From Citreicella sp. C3M06 (GTDB lineage: Bacteria; Pseudomonadota; Alphaproteobacteria; Rhodobacterales; Rhodobacteraceae), in contig NZ_JAHKQA010000078.1 in NCBI RefSeq assembly GCF_018860705.1, forward strand, positions 60,925-124,924: a stretch of DNA of 64,000 nucleotides, written 5' to 3'. The notes beneath the pieces were generated by a model. It saw only the letters and a program-made list of their open reading frames with translations. It searched no databases and was not told where the DNA came from. Position numbers and translations under genes: made by a program. This document shows, piece by piece, positions 48,147 to 57,403 of the stretch; the stretch's first letter is position 1; every line of letters starts with the position of its first letter.

Positions 48147-49328
48147 TTATTCCGCCGCCAGCCGGGGGCCAGCCATCGCGCCGACCAGCCGTGCCCCGGC
48201 CTCGCCCGCCAGATAGGCAAGGCGGCCACCGCTGACCGTCGCCTCGATCTCGCGGGTGGCCTCGTTGATCACCACGAAATCAGCCCGCATGCCGTGGTCG
48301 AGCCTGCCGCGATCGGCAAGGCCCATGATCTCGGCGGGCACGCGGCTGATCATGTCCCAGGCCTGTGGCAGATCGCGCACCCCCTTGTCGACCAGCACCC
48401 ACGCCGCCTCGGCAAGGCAGGGGTAATGGTAATCGGACACCAGCGCATCGCACAGTCCGCGCGAGATCAGGTGCAGCGCCGAGACGCCGCCCGACTGCGA
48501 GCCGCCGCGCACCACGTTGGGCGCCCCCATCAGCACCGGATCATTGCAGGCCCGCGCCAGTTTCGCCGCCGAGGCCGAGGTCGGAAATTCCGCGATGCGC
48601 GCGCCGATGATGCGGTAATATTCGCGGGTTTCGGCATCGGGGTCGTCGTGGCTGCCGTAGCGCACGCCCCATTCGTCAAAGCTTTCGGCCAGCGCGCACA
48701 GATGGCGCGGCACCTCGCGGGAGCGGGCCTGTGCGGCGTTCAGCAGCGACAGGAATTCGGACGGGGCGCAATTGTTGGTCGAGGCCCATTGCCCCAGCTT
48801 GTGCGGCTGGCTTGTGGCCAGTTCCAGCGCCTCGGGCAGGTGATTGTTGAACACCACGTAATCAATGCCATAACGGCGGATTGCGGTCAGCAGGCGCTGG
48901 CGCGTGTCGGGCAGATGGGTTTCGCAGCGGATCTGGATGCGTAGGTCGATCAGCGCGCGGGTGCGCTCGGCGTTCAGCGCCTCCATCACCTGTTCGGCGA
49001 ACTCGGGCGCGCGTAGCCCGCCTTCCCAGCTCCAGCATTGCGCCAGCCACGCGGTGGTGACGCCATGCGCCGCCGCCTCGCGCGCGGCCCAGCGCAGCCC
49101 GGAGCGGATCGGCATTCGCGCCGATGGGCGCGGCGCGATGTGGCGTTCGAAGGCATCGCCATGCAGGTCGATGATACCGGGCAGCAGCAGATAGCCGGAC
49201 ATGTCGACTTCGGGCAGGGGGCCCTTGGTGATCAGGCCGTTCTCGATCACCAGCGAGCGTTTCTGCAACGCGCCATCCCGCAGGATCGCAGCGCCGGTCA
49301 GGCGAAGGGGGGGAAGGGTCACGCACAT
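48147..49328 (-). CDS. PhnM-like amidohydrolase (second PhnM paralogue)
   Basis: A 393-residue amidohydrolase resembling PhnM: LLPGIIDLHGDAFERHIAPRP carries the HxD metal site, and PNVVRGGSQSGG and SDYHYP follow. The canonical PhnM at 56225 has ELHTDNLERHIQPRP instead. PhnM removes diphosphate from the ribosyl phosphonate triphosphate; whether this copy does is unknown. GAGG lies 12 nt before the ATG at 49328. It is transcribed with phnF, away from the main operon. Confidence 0.85.
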   Translation of the reverse strand: MCVTLPPLRLTGAAILRDGALQKRSLVIENGLITKGPLPEVDMSGYLLLPGIIDLHGDAFERHIAPRPSARMPIRSGLRWAAREAAAHGVTTAWLAQCWSWEGGLRAPEFAEQVMEALNAERTRALIDLRIQIRCETHLPDTRQRLLTAIRRYGIDYVVFNNHLPEALELATSQPHKLGQWASTNNCAPSEFLSLLNAAQARSREVPRHLCALAESFDEWGVRYGSHDDPDAETREYYRIIGARIAEFPTSASAAKLARACNDPVLMGAPNVVRGGSQSGGVSALHLISRGLCDALVSDYHYPCLAEAAWVLVDKGVRDLPQAWDMISRVPAEIMGLADRGRLDHGMRADFVVINEATREIEATVSGGRLAYLAGEAGARLVGAMAGPRLAAE

Positions 49329-49390
49329 GTCTGGTTGCCTCGGTTTTTCCCGTGGATAGCAGCGTTGTTTGTCACGCGCATGACGGGTGT

Positions 49391-50110
49391 TCAGCCGTTC
49401 GCCCCATCCCCGACGATCAGCGTCACCCGCTCGCCCACGAACCATGTCAGCCCGTATTCGACGGGGCGGCCCTCTGGGTCCTGATTGACGCTTTCGCTGC
49501 GCAGCAACGGCGCGCCGTCGCGCAGGCCAAGGTGCAAAGCTTGCGTTGGCGAGGCGAGGGTTGCGCTCAGCCGGGTGCTGAGGCGGGTGTAATCGGATAC
49601 GCCGTTGCGCCGCAGCGCCTCGGTGATCGAGACGACCTCGGTCAGGGTTTCGGGCAGGCCGGGCAGGGGCGCAGCGGGAAAGCAACTGATGAAATGCGCG
49701 ATGGGCATGTCTTCGGCCAGCGACAACCCCTCGTAGACGATGACCGCCTCGCCCGGCGCGAGGGACAGCGCGGCGGCCTCTTCGGTGCTGGCGGGGCGGG
49801 TTTCGATGCGCAGGCTGCGTCGGCCGGGCAGGCGGCCCGAGGCGCGGATGTTCTGGGCAAAGCGCACCTTGCCGCCGATCGGGTAATCCAGCGGCGCGGC
49901 GGTCACGAACACCCCCGCACCGCGCCGCGAATTGACGATGCCACGCGCCGCCAAATCCGCCAGCGCCCGGCGCGCGGTATGCCGGTTGACGCCAAAGCGG
50001 CGCGACAGTTCGGCCTCGGTGGGCAGCTTGTCGCCGGGGCGATACAGCCCGCGTGCAATTTCGCCTTCAAGCTCGCTGGTGATGGATTTCCAGACCGGAA
50101 TGCGGGTCAC
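49391..50110 (-). CDS. phnF: GntR-family regulator PhnF
   Basis: A 239-residue HutC-type GntR protein: N-terminal winged helix (AELSRRFGVNRHTARRALAD) and a C-terminal UTRA effector domain. PhnF represses phosphonate genes in other bacteria. The best start is GTG 50110, with AGGAGG six nt upstream; a GTG at 50128 is an alternative. It is divergent from phnG, sharing the 115-bp region with a Pho box and a palindrome. Confidence 0.92.
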   Translation of the reverse strand: MTRIPVWKSITSELEGEIARGLYRPGDKLPTEAELSRRFGVNRHTARRALADLAARGIVNSRRGAGVFVTAAPLDYPIGGKVRFAQNIRASGRLPGRRSLRIETRPASTEEAAALSLAPGEAVIVYEGLSLAEDMPIAHFISCFPAAPLPGLPETLTEVVSITEALRRNGVSDYTRLSTRLSATLASPTQALHLGLRDGAPLLRSESVNQDPEGRPVEYGLTWFVGERVTLIVGDGANG

Positions 50111-50672: not shown

Positions 50673-51241
50673 TGCGGCAGGACAGCCTGACCGGCGGGTT
50701 CACCGACGCACCGCAGCAAGGAGCGCGCGCCTTTCGCGCCGCGCTCGAGGCGATGGCCCGCCCCGGCACAATTCACGAGGTCGCGGGCGCACAGGCCCCC
50801 GCGCCGGTCAGCCCTGCCGCCGCCGTGCTGCTGCTGACGCTGTGCGATCGCGAAACCCCGCTGTATCTTGCCCCGGGCCATGACGGGCAGGCGGTGCGCG
50901 ACTGGATCGGTTTTCACATCGGCGCGCCGCTGACGACGCCCGAAGCGGCGATGTTCGCGCTTGGCGGCTGGGACGCGCTTGGCCCCAAGGATCGCTACCG
51001 CATCGGTACGCCGGATTACCCTGACCGCTCGGTGATGCTGATCTGCGAGACAGACACGCTGGCCGCCAGCGGCGCGCGGCTCACTGGCCCCGGCATTCGC
51101 GATGTGGCGCATCTGTCGCTGCCCGAGATCGCGGCGTTTCGCGCCAATCACGCGCTGTTCCCGCTGGGCTGGGATTGCTTATTCACCTGCGGCACGCGGC
51201 TGGCCGCGCTGCCCCGCACCAGCATCGTGGAGGCATCGTAA
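50669..51241 (+). CDS. phnH: C-P lyase subunit PhnH
   Basis: A 190-residue subunit with a PLP-transferase-like fold but no cofactor. DSLTGGFTDAPQQGARAFR near the N-terminus and ARPGTIHEV are family motifs. It starts within the phnG stop (ATGATG) and its TAA overlaps the phnI ATG by one base (TAATG). Confidence 0.92.
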   Translation: MMRQDSLTGGFTDAPQQGARAFRAALEAMARPGTIHEVAGAQAPAPVSPAAAVLLLTLCDRETPLYLAPGHDGQAVRDWIGFHIGAPLTTPEAAMFALGGWDALGPKDRYRIGTPDYPDRSVMLICETDTLAASGARLTGPGIRDVAHLSLPEIAAFRANHALFPLGWDCLFTCGTRLAALPRTSIVEAS

Positions 51242-52326
51242 TGTATGTTGCGGTAAAGGGCGGCGAGCGCGCCATCGACGCAGCCCATGACTGGCTGGCC
51301 GAGGAACGCCGGGGCGATCCGGCCATCCCCGAGCTGAGCATCGCGCAGATCCGCGAGCAGATGGCGCTGGCGGTGAACCGTGTGATGGCCGAGGGCTCGC
51401 TCTATGATCCAGATCTGGCGGCGCTGGCGATCAAGCAGGCGCGCGGCGACCTGATCGAGGCGATCTTTCTGATCCGCGCCTATCGCACCACGCTGCCGCG
51501 CTTTGGCGCCTCAAAGCCGCTCGACACCGCCGCGATGCGCTGCGATCGGCGCATCAGCGCGACCTTCAAGGATGCGCCGGGCGGGCAGGTGCTGGGGCCG
51601 ACCTTTGACTATACCCACCGGTTGCTGGATTTCGCGCTGGCCGCCGAGGGCGAGGCCCCGGTGGCGCGGCAGGGCGATCCGGTGGCGGGAGACACGCCCC
51701 GCATCATGGACTTCCTCAATGCCGACGGGCTGATCCAGCAAGAACCGCCATCAGACGACACCCCGGCCGATCTGACCCGCGAGCCGCTGGAATTCCCGGC
51801 GGGCCGCGATCTGCGGCTACAGGCGCTGAGCCGCAGCGACGAGGGCTTCGTGCTTGGCATGGCCTACAGCACCCAGCGCGGTTACGGGCGAAACCACCCT
51901 TTTGTGGGCGAGCTGCGCATCGGCGCCGTCGAGGTGGTGATGGACATCCCCGAGCTGGGCTTTGACATCTGCATCGGCGAGGTCACCCTGACCGAATGCG
52001 AGACGGTCAACCAGTTCACCGGGTCAAAGAGCGAACCGGCGCAGTTCACCCGCGGCTATGGGCTGGTCTTTGGCCAGAGCGAACGCAAGGCGATTTCCAT
52101 GGCGCTGGTCGACCGGGCGCTGCGCTGGGATGAGCTGGGCGAGGAAGACGTTGGCGCCCCGGCGCAGGACGCGGAATTCGTGCTGGCGCATGGCGACAAC
52201 ATTCAGGCGACGGGGTTTCTCGAACATATCAAGCTGCCCCATTACGTCGATTTCCAGTCAGAGCTGGAACTGGTGCGCCGGATGCGCCGCGAGGCGATGG
52301 GCGAGATGAAGGAGGCGGCGCAATGA
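51241..52326 (+). CDS. phnI: C-P lyase subunit PhnI
   Basis: A 361-residue subunit, a purine nucleosidase/phosphonate ribosyltransferase that joins phosphonate to the ribose of ATP with release of adenine (with PhnG, H and L). MYVAVKGGERAIDAAH and the later GMAYSTQRGYGRNHPF and EITLTECETVNQFTGSK-like blocks are family hallmarks. The C-terminus KEAAQ ends in the GAGGCGGCGCAATGA motif, which is repeated 260 nt later at the phnJ start. Confidence 0.92.
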   Translation: MYVAVKGGERAIDAAHDWLAEERRGDPAIPELSIAQIREQMALAVNRVMAEGSLYDPDLAALAIKQARGDLIEAIFLIRAYRTTLPRFGASKPLDTAAMRCDRRISATFKDAPGGQVLGPTFDYTHRLLDFALAAEGEAPVARQGDPVAGDTPRIMDFLNADGLIQQEPPSDDTPADLTREPLEFPAGRDLRLQALSRSDEGFVLGMAYSTQRGYGRNHPFVGELRIGAVEVVMDIPELGFDICIGEVTLTECETVNQFTGSKSEPAQFTRGYGLVFGQSERKAISMALVDRALRWDELGEEDVGAPAQDAEFVLAHGDNIQATGFLEHIKLPHYVDFQSELELVRRMRREAMGEMKEAAQ

Positions 52327-52586
52327 GCTCAGTCTCCGTCCTCTCCGCCGTCCTCTCCTCTGTCACAGGCTCGGTCGGGCTCGCTGAGGTCGCCGCCCGT
52401 GTCGGGGCCGTCGCCGCGGAAATAGCCAAAGGCGTGGGCGATCAGGAAGCCTACCACCGCAAGGAAGCACAAGGTCTCTACAAGGTTTTCATCGACAAGG
52501 TCGAACAGATCGAATGGGGTCATCGGGCGGGCTCTTGCTTGGGGGCGATGGTTGCACCCTTTCACAAAATCGAGGCGGCGCAATGA
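52312..52586. repeat. Exact 15-bp direct repeat around an insert
   Basis: GAGGCGGCGCAATGA occurs at 52312-52326 (end of phnI) and again at 52572-52586 (start of phnJ); the flanking bases differ. It includes a Shine-Dalgarno-like GAGGCGG and the ATGA stop/start overlap. The arrangement suggests that a 245-bp segment entered the phnI-phnJ junction, with duplication of the junction. Confidence 0.8.
52323..52586 (+). CDS. Small ORF inserted between phnI and phnJ
   Basis: An 87-residue reading frame, starting MSSVSVLSAVLSSVTGSV, whose start overlaps the phnI stop and whose stop overlaps the phnJ start (ATGA on both sides). GC at third positions is near 71%, lower than the neighbours, suggesting foreign or young DNA. 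A competing 64-residue minus-strand frame starts at 52523 (MTPFDLFDLVDENLVE, with a transmembrane segment and an Asp/Gly-rich acidic tail), so the coding strand is not certain. No family is recognised. Confidence 0.4.
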   Translation: MSSVSVLSAVLSSVTGSVGLAEVAARVGAVAAEIAKGVGDQEAYHRKEAQGLYKVFIDKVEQIEWGHRAGSCLGAMVAPFHKIEAAQ

Positions 52587-53455
52587 CCCTTCATGATCCG
52601 AATTACAACTTTGCCTATCTGGACGAGCAGACCAAGCGGATGATCCGCCGCGCGCTGCTCAAGGCGCTGGCGATCCCCGGCTATCAGGTGCCCTTTGCCA
52701 GCCGCGAAATGCCGATGCCTTACGGCTGGGGCACCGGCGGCGTGCAGGTCACGGCGGCTTGCCTGACGCCCGAAGATACGCTCAAGGTCATCGACCAAGG
52801 GGCCGACGACACCACCAACGCGGTGTCGATCCGCAAGTTCTTTCAACGCACGGCGGGGGTCGCCGTGACCGAGCAGACCGCGCAGGCGAGCGTGATCCAG
52901 ACCCGTCACCGCATCCCCGAAACCCCGCTGATCGAGGGGCAGATCCTTGTCTATCAGGTGCCGATCCCGGAACCGCTGCGCTTTCTCGAACCGCGCGAGA
53001 CAGAAACCCGGCGGATGCACGCGCTGGAGGAATATGGGCTCATGCATGTCAAGCTCTACGAAGACATCGCCCATAATGGCGAGATTTCAACCGCCTATGC
53101 CTATCCGGTCAAGGTCGAAGGGCGCTACGTCATGGACCCGTCGCCGATCCCGAAATTCGACAACCCGAAGCTGGAAAGCGCCGCGATCCAGCTGTTCGGT
53201 GCCGGGCGCGAACAGCGGATTTACGCGCTGCCGCCCTATTGCCGGGTGACCAGCCTTGATTTTGAGGATCACCCGTTCGAGGCCAGCAAGGCCGACCACG
53301 ACTGCGATCTGTGCGGCTGCGCCACCAGCTATCTCGACGAGGTGATCGTGGATGATGCGGGCGGGCGGATGTTCGTCTGCTCGGATACCGATTTCTGCAC
53401 CGGACGGCGCGAGGGTGGCCATCGCGGCAGGCTCTCGCCGGAGGATATGGCATGA
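52583..53455 (+). CDS. phnJ: C-P lyase radical-SAM subunit PhnJ
   Basis: A 290-residue catalytic subunit that splits the C-P bond by a radical mechanism. The Cys cluster is at residues 241, 244, 266 and 272 (CDLC, then FVCSDTDFC), the numbering used for the E. coli enzyme: three bind the 4Fe-4S cluster and the last forms the thiyl radical. Gly33 in AIPGYQVPF is the likely glycyl site. Products are an alkane and the cyclic ribosyl phosphate. It overlaps phnK by 4 nt. Confidence 0.95.
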   Translation: MTLHDPNYNFAYLDEQTKRMIRRALLKALAIPGYQVPFASREMPMPYGWGTGGVQVTAACLTPEDTLKVIDQGADDTTNAVSIRKFFQRTAGVAVTEQTAQASVIQTRHRIPETPLIEGQILVYQVPIPEPLRFLEPRETETRRMHALEEYGLMHVKLYEDIAHNGEISTAYAYPVKVEGRYVMDPSPIPKFDNPKLESAAIQLFGAGREQRIYALPPYCRVTSLDFEDHPFEASKADHDCDLCGCATSYLDEVIVDDAGGRMFVCSDTDFCTGRREGGHRGRLSPEDMA

Positions 53456-56224: not shown

Positions 56225-57403
56225 ATGATGGGCGATATGAGCGTGGGCCACCAGATGGCAGTCGGAGAGATGGCGCTGCGAAACGCGCGACTGGTGCTGG
56301 AGGGCGAGGTTGTCTCTGGCTCTGTGCTGGTGCGCGACGGGCGTATCGCAGCGGTGGATGCGGGCCCGGTGGCGCCGCCGGGGGCGCTGGATTGCGAGGG
56401 CGATCTGCTGATCCCCGGGCTGATCGAGCTGCATACGGACAATCTTGAACGGCATATCCAGCCGCGCCCCAAGGTGGATTGGCCGCATATGGCGGCGATC
56501 CTTGCCCATGACGCTGAGCTGGCTGGAACCGGCATCACCACGGTGTTCGATGCGATGCGGGTGGGATCGGTCATCTCGGACGGAACCGGGGAGTATCGCA
56601 AATATGCGCGCGCCGTGGCGTCCGAGGTGATGGCGGCGCGCGGGCGGGGGATGCTGAAGATCTCGCACCTGCTGCATCTGCGGGCCGAAGTCTGTTCGGA
56701 AACGCTGCTCGAAGAGCTGGACGAATTCACCGAGGCGGACCGGGTCGGCATATTGTCGATCATGGATCACACCCCCGGACAGCGGCAATTCCGCGATATC
56801 TCGAAGCTGAAGGACTATGTCTGCGGCAAGCATGGCATGTCAGAGGCGCAATTTGCCGATCATGTCGCCGGGCTGACAGCGATCCATGCTCGGCTGGGCA
56901 CAGCGCATGAGGCCGGCGCCGTGGCGGCGGCGCGCCGGCTTGGCGCGGTGCTGGCGAGCCATGACGACACCGAGCGCGGCCATGTGGAAGTCAGCGCCGG
57001 GCATGGTGTGCGGCTGGCGGAATTCCCGACCACGCTCGAGGCGGCGCAGGCTTGTCATGACCACGGTATCGCAGTGATGATGGGCGCGCCGAACCTGATC
57101 CGGGGCGGTTCGCATTCTGGCAACGTGGCGGCGGCGGAACTGGCCGGGGCGGGGCTGCTGGATATCCTCAGCTCGGACTACGTGCCTTCGGCGCTGATGA
57201 CGGCGGCGTTCCGGCTTGCCGGGTTGTGGGATGATCTGCCAAGGGCGGTGGCCACGGTCACCGCCGCACCGGCGCGGGCTACGGGGCTGACCGACCGGGG
57301 TCGCATCGCGCCCGGCTTGCTGGCGGATATGGTCCGCGTGCGGCTGGTGGACGGGGTGCCGGTGATCCGGGGCGTGTGGAGCCACGGCCGGCAGGTTGGC
57401 TGA
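56225..57403 (+). CDS. phnM: Ribosyl phosphonate triphosphate diphosphatase PhnM
   Basis: A 392-residue amidohydrolase that removes diphosphate from alpha-D-ribose 1-methylphosphonate 5-triphosphate. The metal motif is IELHTDNLERHIQPRP as in the E. coli enzyme; SHDDTERGHV and PNLIRGGSHSGN follow. AGGAAGAG precedes the ATG at 56225. It is a separate rightward unit ending in an inverted pair of repeats. Confidence 0.94.
   Translation: MMGDMSVGHQMAVGEMALRNARLVLEGEVVSGSVLVRDGRIAAVDAGPVAPPGALDCEGDLLIPGLIELHTDNLERHIQPRPKVDWPHMAAILAHDAELAGTGITTVFDAMRVGSVISDGTGEYRKYARAVASEVMAARGRGMLKISHLLHLRAEVCSETLLEELDEFTEADRVGILSIMDHTPGQRQFRDISKLKDYVCGKHGMSEAQFADHVAGLTAIHARLGTAHEAGAVAAARRLGAVLASHDDTERGHVEVSAGHGVRLAEFPTTLEAAQACHDHGIAVMMGAPNLIRGGSHSGNVAAAELAGAGLLDILSSDYVPSALMTAAFRLAGLWDDLPRAVATVTAAPARATGLTDRGRIAPGLLADMVRVRLVDGVPVIRGVWSHGRQVG

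Follow-up and report, generated by a model that had tools for sequence, protein, structure and literature searches.

A variable slot between phnI and phnJ in Rhodobacteraceae, with a candidate antisense membrane-peptide gene and a putative translational relay frame in Citreicella sp. C3M06

Results

The phnI-phnJ junction of C3M06

The window analysed covers 64 kb of contig C51 of Citreicella sp. C3M06. It contains a phn operon in which phnI and phnJ, encoding subunits of a single complex, C-P lyase, are 256 nt apart. The features at the junction are given below, with positions counted from the first base of the window.

51241-52326, + strand: phnI (Pfam PhnI, E 2.6e-164)
52312-52326, + strand: left copy of the 15-mer, comprising the phnI tail and ATGA (exact)
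52323-52586, + strand: bridging frame, 87 codons plus stop (from ORF reading; read as a putative relay and not as a conserved protein)
52327-52571, no strand: insert of 245 bp between the two 15-mers (from sequence and repeat search)
52329-52523, - strand: candidate antisense small gene, 64 aa (from pN/pS against S. aestuarii and hydropathy)
52572-52586, + strand: right copy of the 15-mer, comprising the phnJ start and the bridging-frame stop (exact)
52583-53455, + strand: phnJ, with its ATG at 52583 (Pfam PhnJ, E 3.1e-142)

Amidohydrolase-family genes (Pfam) flank the operon at 48147-49685 on the - strand and at 56225-57403 on the + strand, and from their look we take both to be PhnM-like.

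PhnI ends in EAAQ, followed by a TGA stop (52324-52326) that overlaps an ATG as ATGA, and such ATGA overlaps are found at each end of the 87-codon bridging frame. The first-pass annotation had described a 245-bp insert flanked by an exact 15-bp direct repeat, GAGGCGGCGCAATGA, and both the repeat and its coordinates were confirmed. The frame said to link phnI to phnJ is indeed open from 52323 to 52586, and the phnI stop and phnJ start both still look usable, in keeping with the seamless insertion that had been proposed. Zero-mismatch copies of the 15-mer within the window are confined to 52312-52326 and 52572-52586. Since one more exact copy is present elsewhere in the C3M06 genome (C38:9969-9983, E 4.2; 5.01 Mb in 106 contigs searched), a single 15-mer is unremarkable while the pair is remarkable.

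Slot contents within Salipiger and the direct repeat

The junction query was matched in all 20 genomes of the genus, Salipiger. The insert of C3M06 was found in two of these, S. aestuarii (G003) being the sole sharer. Junctions of at most 5 bp were present in five genomes (G004, G005, G006, G016 and G019), junctions of 29 or 52 bp in two, a DUF559 gene in three and the gene of an acidic protein in eight, contents other than the C3M06 type or an empty junction thus occurring in 13/20. All five short junctions carry a single copy resembling the 15-mer, as had been anticipated for relatives lacking the insert, and the claim of an insertion is upheld. In a phnI+phnJ tree C3M06 and S. aestuarii were sisters (99/98), the three DUF559 genomes formed one clade (100/100), and 7 of the 8 acidic-gene genomes (100/100) and 4 of the 5 genomes with an empty junction (98/93) likewise fell into one clade each. 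As the contents follow the clades of the tree, slot contents turn over between Salipiger clades.

The acidic slot protein is encoded on the forward strand, comprises roughly 130 residues and is conserved (L012, L015, L020, L021, L024, L025, L027 and L028); one representative gave no Pfam or NCBIfam match. Upstream of the DUF559 inserts (L011, L016 and L018) lie GC-rich palindromic stretches, CCCTCCCC ... GGGGAGGG, which by eye have the look of a dispersed repeat.

Outside the shared ATGA, the two copies of the repeat match at 11/11 positions in C3M06 and at 9/11 in S. aestuarii, where 13 of the 15 bases of the full 15-mer are identical. The exactness of the repeat is recent, as the sister S. 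aestuarii has GAGGCGGCGGAATGA and GGGGCGGCGCAATGA. Left and right copies in 105 inserts matched beyond ATGA at a mean of 4.11 positions against 4.10 for cross-locus pairs, among which 10 matches were reached in 0.33% and 11 in none; nine or more matching bases were seen only in the C3M06 and S. aestuarii pairs. The idea that slot inserts in general are marked by a direct repeat was rejected on account of this cross-locus level of matching. Many single-copy junctions in other Alphaproteobacteria have phnI tails resembling the left copy (GAGGCnGCnGAATGA), and the left copy is a recurrent functional junction and not random sequence. Since junctions outside the family are tight and many have a similar phnI tail, the 15-mer is best read as an ancestral coupling junction.

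The first-pass annotation had considered a miniature mobile element. Insertion of such an element with a target-site duplication of 15 bp would also fit the exact repeat and the empty sites in congeners, the 15-mer being paired in C3M06 and single in 5/20 congeners. Multiple copies and terminal inverted repeats were, however, both lacking. The search for further insert copies in the 5.01-Mb genome returned one copy only (next best E 0.34), and no pair of inverted repeats of at least 12 bp was found in 51800-53200. In the searches run, relatives were limited to one other species, and the high matching of repeat copies was limited to these two among the 105 inserts. Searches of phage and plasmid DNA gave short weak matches covering at most 17% of the query, with no match at the protein level. 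A mobile element was consequently rejected and is regarded as extremely unlikely. Phage origin was also rejected, as the antisense frame had one PHROGs match at E 0.058 and no relative was found among viral contigs.

The slot across Rhodobacteraceae

Of 394 family genomes sampled (393 genera), PhnJ was present in 192 (191 genera). Junctions were taken from 156 of these (C3M06 and L100-L254), the 36 outside the count including the lowest-scoring and unlisted ones. Together with the 20 genus loci this gave 175 loci, with G006 counted twice (L019 and L100), of which 170 were measurable; the start could not be located in L011, L016, L028, L202 and L230, three of which are Salipiger loci with known cargo. 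The distance between phnI and phnJ exceeded 60 bp at 106/170 junctions and was at most 10 bp at 56/170, a small number of HAD loci (L211 and L244 among them) having a start wrongly placed inside the gene. Excluding Salipiger, the corresponding counts were 96 and 50 of 152, and 48 of those 50 short junctions are exact 4-nt overlaps. An insert at this position is therefore common in the family and not unusual, as it had first been called. The phnH/phnI junction exceeded 60 bp in 0/134 cases. For phnJ/phnK the count was 8/72, five of these exceeding 400 bp, and a second, rarer slot may therefore exist there. Outside the family, 29 alphaproteobacterial genomes with PhnJ were sampled, 28 of them with a readable locus; phnI and phnJ were at most 17 bp apart in 28/28 and overlapped by 4 nt in 18/28, the value of -58 for L301 probably reflecting a misplaced phnI stop. 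The junction of phnI and phnJ is a slot that varies in Rhodobacteraceae, and the variation is local. In G599, the one congener of G102 obtained, the aligned phnI and phnJ pieces are 8 bp apart, which left no insert pair for pN/pS.

The 106 inserts longer than 60 bp comprised 32 with a HAD gene, 10 with DUF559, 7 with the Salipiger acidic protein of 134 aa, one with a glyoxalase, one of 1230 bp (L127) and 55 without a recognised forward gene, HAD and glyoxalase cargo being named by Pfam on one HAD protein and the glyoxalase. The 55 inserts span 61-650 bp and match none of five forward-gene seeds, L127 being excluded; two are from one genus (C3M06 and S. aestuarii) and the others represent one genome per genus, although inserts from related genera are not fully independent. 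The commonest forward cargo is a HAD-type hydrolase of about 198 aa (L102, L105, L107, L113, L119 and others), possibly an accessory phosphonate enzyme. Decay of a HAD gene as the source of the C3M06 insert was rejected, with weak short matches only.

The coding strand of the insert

C3M06 and S. aestuarii align at 84% over positions 1-875 of the junction query. The phnI-phnJ gap of S. aestuarii is 244 bp compared to 256 bp, and its insert is likewise open on both strands. Between the two, the 64-aa antisense frame has a pS of 0.62 and a pN of 0.13, giving a pN/pS of 0.21 (0.16 over the first 48 codons), and its third positions take 29 of 45 differences (p 1.9e-5). The forward 87-codon frame has a pN/pS of 1.25, and 35 of its 68 differences fall in first codon positions, which are the third positions of the antisense frame. 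Compared with the flanking genes (PhnI, pS 0.40 and pN 0.07; PhnJ, pS 0.44 and pN 0.05), the antisense frame looks like a protein-coding gene on which constraint is somewhat weaker. The antisense frame is accordingly the better-supported candidate coding frame of the insert, a strand call based on two sequences (G000, which is C3M06, and G003), as the protein was found in these alone. It is present in 2/20 genus genomes and, in a scan of GTDB contigs, in S. aestuarii only. No convincing further match was obtained among 394 family genomes (next best E 8e-4, within a frame of 856 aa) in a search that scored at most 15 candidates per genome and may thus have overlooked weak relatives.

A single hydrophobic segment (18-residue mean 2.12) and a tail rich in Gly and Asp characterise the antisense protein. 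No match in Pfam or NCBIfam was obtained for it or for the forward frame. Using a codon table of ten window genes, the minus frame scored 0.003 against 0.018 for the facing forward frame, native genes scoring 0.32-0.48; with a table of phnI only the values were 0.10 and -0.13. The minus ORF is preceded by what reads as a weak ribosome-binding site, and neither a sigma-70-like promoter nor a terminator-like site was seen in 52250-52900.

Forward and antisense codons share the same triplets in this insert, so that a forward stop requires a TTA, CTA or TCA codon on the antisense strand, and in GC-rich DNA a long forward shadow frame is therefore likely. If the assignment were reversed, the 87-codon forward frame would encode a new operon protein (phnI-X-phnJ) and the antisense frame would be its shadow. 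This reading would agree with the perfect operon register, the ATGA overlaps at both ends and the HAD, DUF559, acidic and glyoxalase genes that fill the slot in the forward direction elsewhere. It is contradicted by the pN/pS of 1.25, the concentration of differences in first positions and the searches for relatives, which gave none that was convincing for the forward 87-aa protein among 295 genomes of the family (best other E 0.005). Across insert pairs, moreover, pN/pS was lower on the minus than on the plus strand in 10 of 12 pairs, with the reverse order in two, both involving L135; these pairs share members, and the minus stretch of L175 has just 22 codons. The forward ORF was rejected as the gene, and a forward operon protein is considered distinctly unlikely. 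The new small gene suggested by the first-pass annotation is thus probably present, only not as the forward frame that it had pointed to. The contrary case, in which the whole order would keep this interval as a gene, is not what is observed.

Antisense peptides in other slots

A hydrophobic antisense ORF (at least 20 aa, with a hydropathy cut-off of 1.6 that was set after seeing the data) was found in 31 of the 55 inserts, compared to 2 of 275 phnI-internal stretches of equal length, 40 of 1100 shuffled inserts and 7 of 55 forward strands. Codon usage favoured the minus strand in 27 of the 31 (Wilcoxon p 2.6e-6). The antisense codons were aligned with those of the bridging frame in 24/31 (6e-7 against one in three), which is what one would predict if inserts survive only with an open bridge.

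One subfamily, GPGGW, has the tail LPDxxAGPGGWLIDTG and the consensus ITFDQIAxSxxxxxxLREAMIxxLPDxIAGPGGWLIDTG, and its model matched 36 of 248 Rhodobacteraceae genomes at E <= 0.01. Among 29 of 30 loci inspected (L256-L284, e.g. L260, L261 and L268; L285 was left out), five were in the phn slot, eight beside truA, whose TruA domain was confirmed, and 16 elsewhere. As 24/29 loci lie outside phn, GPGGW genes form a family that stands on its own and occasionally occupies the slot; members in the slot include L155, L194, L143 and L242. Five members (alignment A3) gave no Pfam match. The model had no match in the C3M06 genome at E <= 0.01, and the C3M06 protein resembles this subfamily only in its size, its hydrophobic stretch and its acidic tail.

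The size of the antisense peptide, its single hydrophobic stretch and its full overlap with the operon would also be compatible with a type I toxin-like membrane peptide for which the phn mRNA serves as silencing antisense RNA. In addition, the slot peptide of L248 resembles the Pfam family YxzE, 'putative bacteriocin', albeit below the cut-off (32.6 vs 40 bits, E 1.7e-7). An acidic tail is nevertheless untypical of short toxic helices, as is the soluble motif conserved in the sister subfamily, and 24 of the 29 GPGGW genes inspected are away from phn. A toxin of this type is therefore held to be very unlikely.

The bridging frame

The bridging frame, defined by restart at the phnI ATGA, was free of stops in 50 of the 55 inserts, while the other two forward frames were stop-free in 17/55 each and composition shuffles expect 11.6. 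In the five that were not strictly open the stops lie at most 38 nt from phnJ. In 44/55 inserts the bridging stop and the phnJ start overlap, the overlap being 4 nt in 28 of them and 8 nt in 16; three bridging frames fuse in frame with phnJ, and the remaining eight stops range from 38 nt before to 20 nt past the phnJ start. Delivery to the phnJ start, scored as a stop within -40 to +20 of it or an in-frame fusion in a window set after seeing the data, occurred in 55/55 bridging frames compared to 11/55 and 21/55 for the other frames and 16.4 in shuffles.

The bridge was strictly open in 7/7 inserts whose antisense ORF lacks codon alignment and in 24/24 inserts without a hydrophobic antisense ORF, and is therefore not merely a by-product of the antisense gene. 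For GPGGW genes outside phn, the codon-aligned opposite frame was open in 14/20, against 9 and 1 for the other registers. This default openness weakens the 24 aligned cases but affects neither the seven unaligned ones nor the 24 without such an ORF.

A 114-bp insert on the Ruegeria sp. TM1040 megaplasmid (L315, 1481-1594), hairpin-like by eye, also has an open bridging frame. Two plasmid records of Paracoccus point further to a relay. In Paracoccus yeei (L319) the slot holds an 80-aa frame, the hypothetical protein WP_120443694.1, with 4-nt overlaps to both neighbours; by eye both ends resemble those of the HAD gene with the middle absent, and there was no Pfam match. In Paracoccus sp. TOH (L321) 85 bp are left, with a HAD-like tail by eye and an open bridge.

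These two apparent HAD remnants with the bridge kept, together with the 24/55 inserts that bridge without a hydrophobic antisense ORF and the weak codon usage of the C3M06 insert, are what would be expected of decaying neutral passengers in which coupling alone keeps the forward frame open and any antisense ORF is accidental. Such decay does not account for the excess of antisense differences in third positions (29/45), the pN/pS of 0.21 or the hydrophobic antisense ORFs exceeding every control. For C3M06 a neutral passenger is judged unlikely.

Discussion

The insert of C3M06 is probably an antisense membrane-peptide gene in a tolerated slot, with a forward shadow frame that would act as a translational relay. 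The slot, the antisense coding signal and the excess of open bridging frames are shown by the sequences; translation of the relay, transcription of the small gene, the membrane location of its product and mutual antisense control are inferred. The small gene would oppose the phn operon and encode a predicted one-helix membrane peptide with an acidic tail. According to the proposed mechanism, Rhodobacteraceae refill the phnI-phnJ slot repeatedly with different cargo, which would be retained only if a ribosome stopping at phnI can restart at once. The restarted ribosome would translate the whole insert as a single open frame, terminating at the phnJ start. The 87-codon frame would in this manner be a relay whose openness is kept while its protein sequence is not, and insertion in the common ancestor of C3M06 and S. 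aestuarii would have duplicated the old coupling junction, giving the 15-bp repeat. We propose that ribosomes pass from phnI to phnJ along the forward strand, which would keep the PhnI and PhnJ subunits in balance.

Translational coupling via termination-reinitiation at ATGA overlaps is described in PMC6728339 and PMC10666635, and gene overlaps are enriched among complex subunits (PMC10666635). The locus has in common with such systems the short stop/start overlaps, seen here as ATGA at both bridge ends, the 4-nt phnI/phnJ overlap at most empty sites and two genes whose products belong to one complex. It differs in that the genes are 256 nt apart and joined by a frame without a conserved protein. 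As reported in the same source for reporters in E. coli and Haloferax, a spacing of about 20 nt nearly abolishes reinitiation (PMC10666635), and inserts would therefore need a bridge.

The opposite-strand candidate ORF at 52329-52523 between phnI and phnJ further resembles the noncontiguous operon menE-menC-MW1733-ytkD-MW1731 of S. aureus, as outlined in a review (PMC7154746). In both cases an opposite-strand gene lies inside an operon, so that the mRNAs would overlap. The internal mRNA stretch is described as untranslated in S. aureus, whereas here the forward strand is an open joining frame. Overlap between the operon mRNA and that of the small gene would probably let each of them dampen the other, as in noncontiguous operons (PMC7154746). 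Open frames on both strands of one stretch are also known from ano, laoB and pop of E. coli O157, which are described as antisense genes embedded within annotated protein genes; here, by contrast, the forward frame encodes no conserved protein, and many genera show the arrangement. No description of the phnI-phnJ slot or of an unconserved bridging frame was found in the literature searched, which consisted of titles, abstract openings and passages and included few subscription journals.

For the family as a whole, the chances appear about even that the phnI-phnJ junction is a natural relay site, at which open frames, selected irrespective of their protein and solely to carry ribosomes between two coupled subunits, let unrelated genes nest in a core operon, many of these being antisense membrane-peptide genes, with both strands constrained at once. 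Should this reading hold, an operon frame would be conserved for the act of translation and not for a protein, which would explain some 'hypothetical' ORFs that are fixed in place but not in sequence. The dozens of different inserts constitute a natural experiment on how coupling limits the cargo of an operon, and they flag antisense membrane-peptide genes, including a Pfam-unmatched family that is free-standing in many genera.
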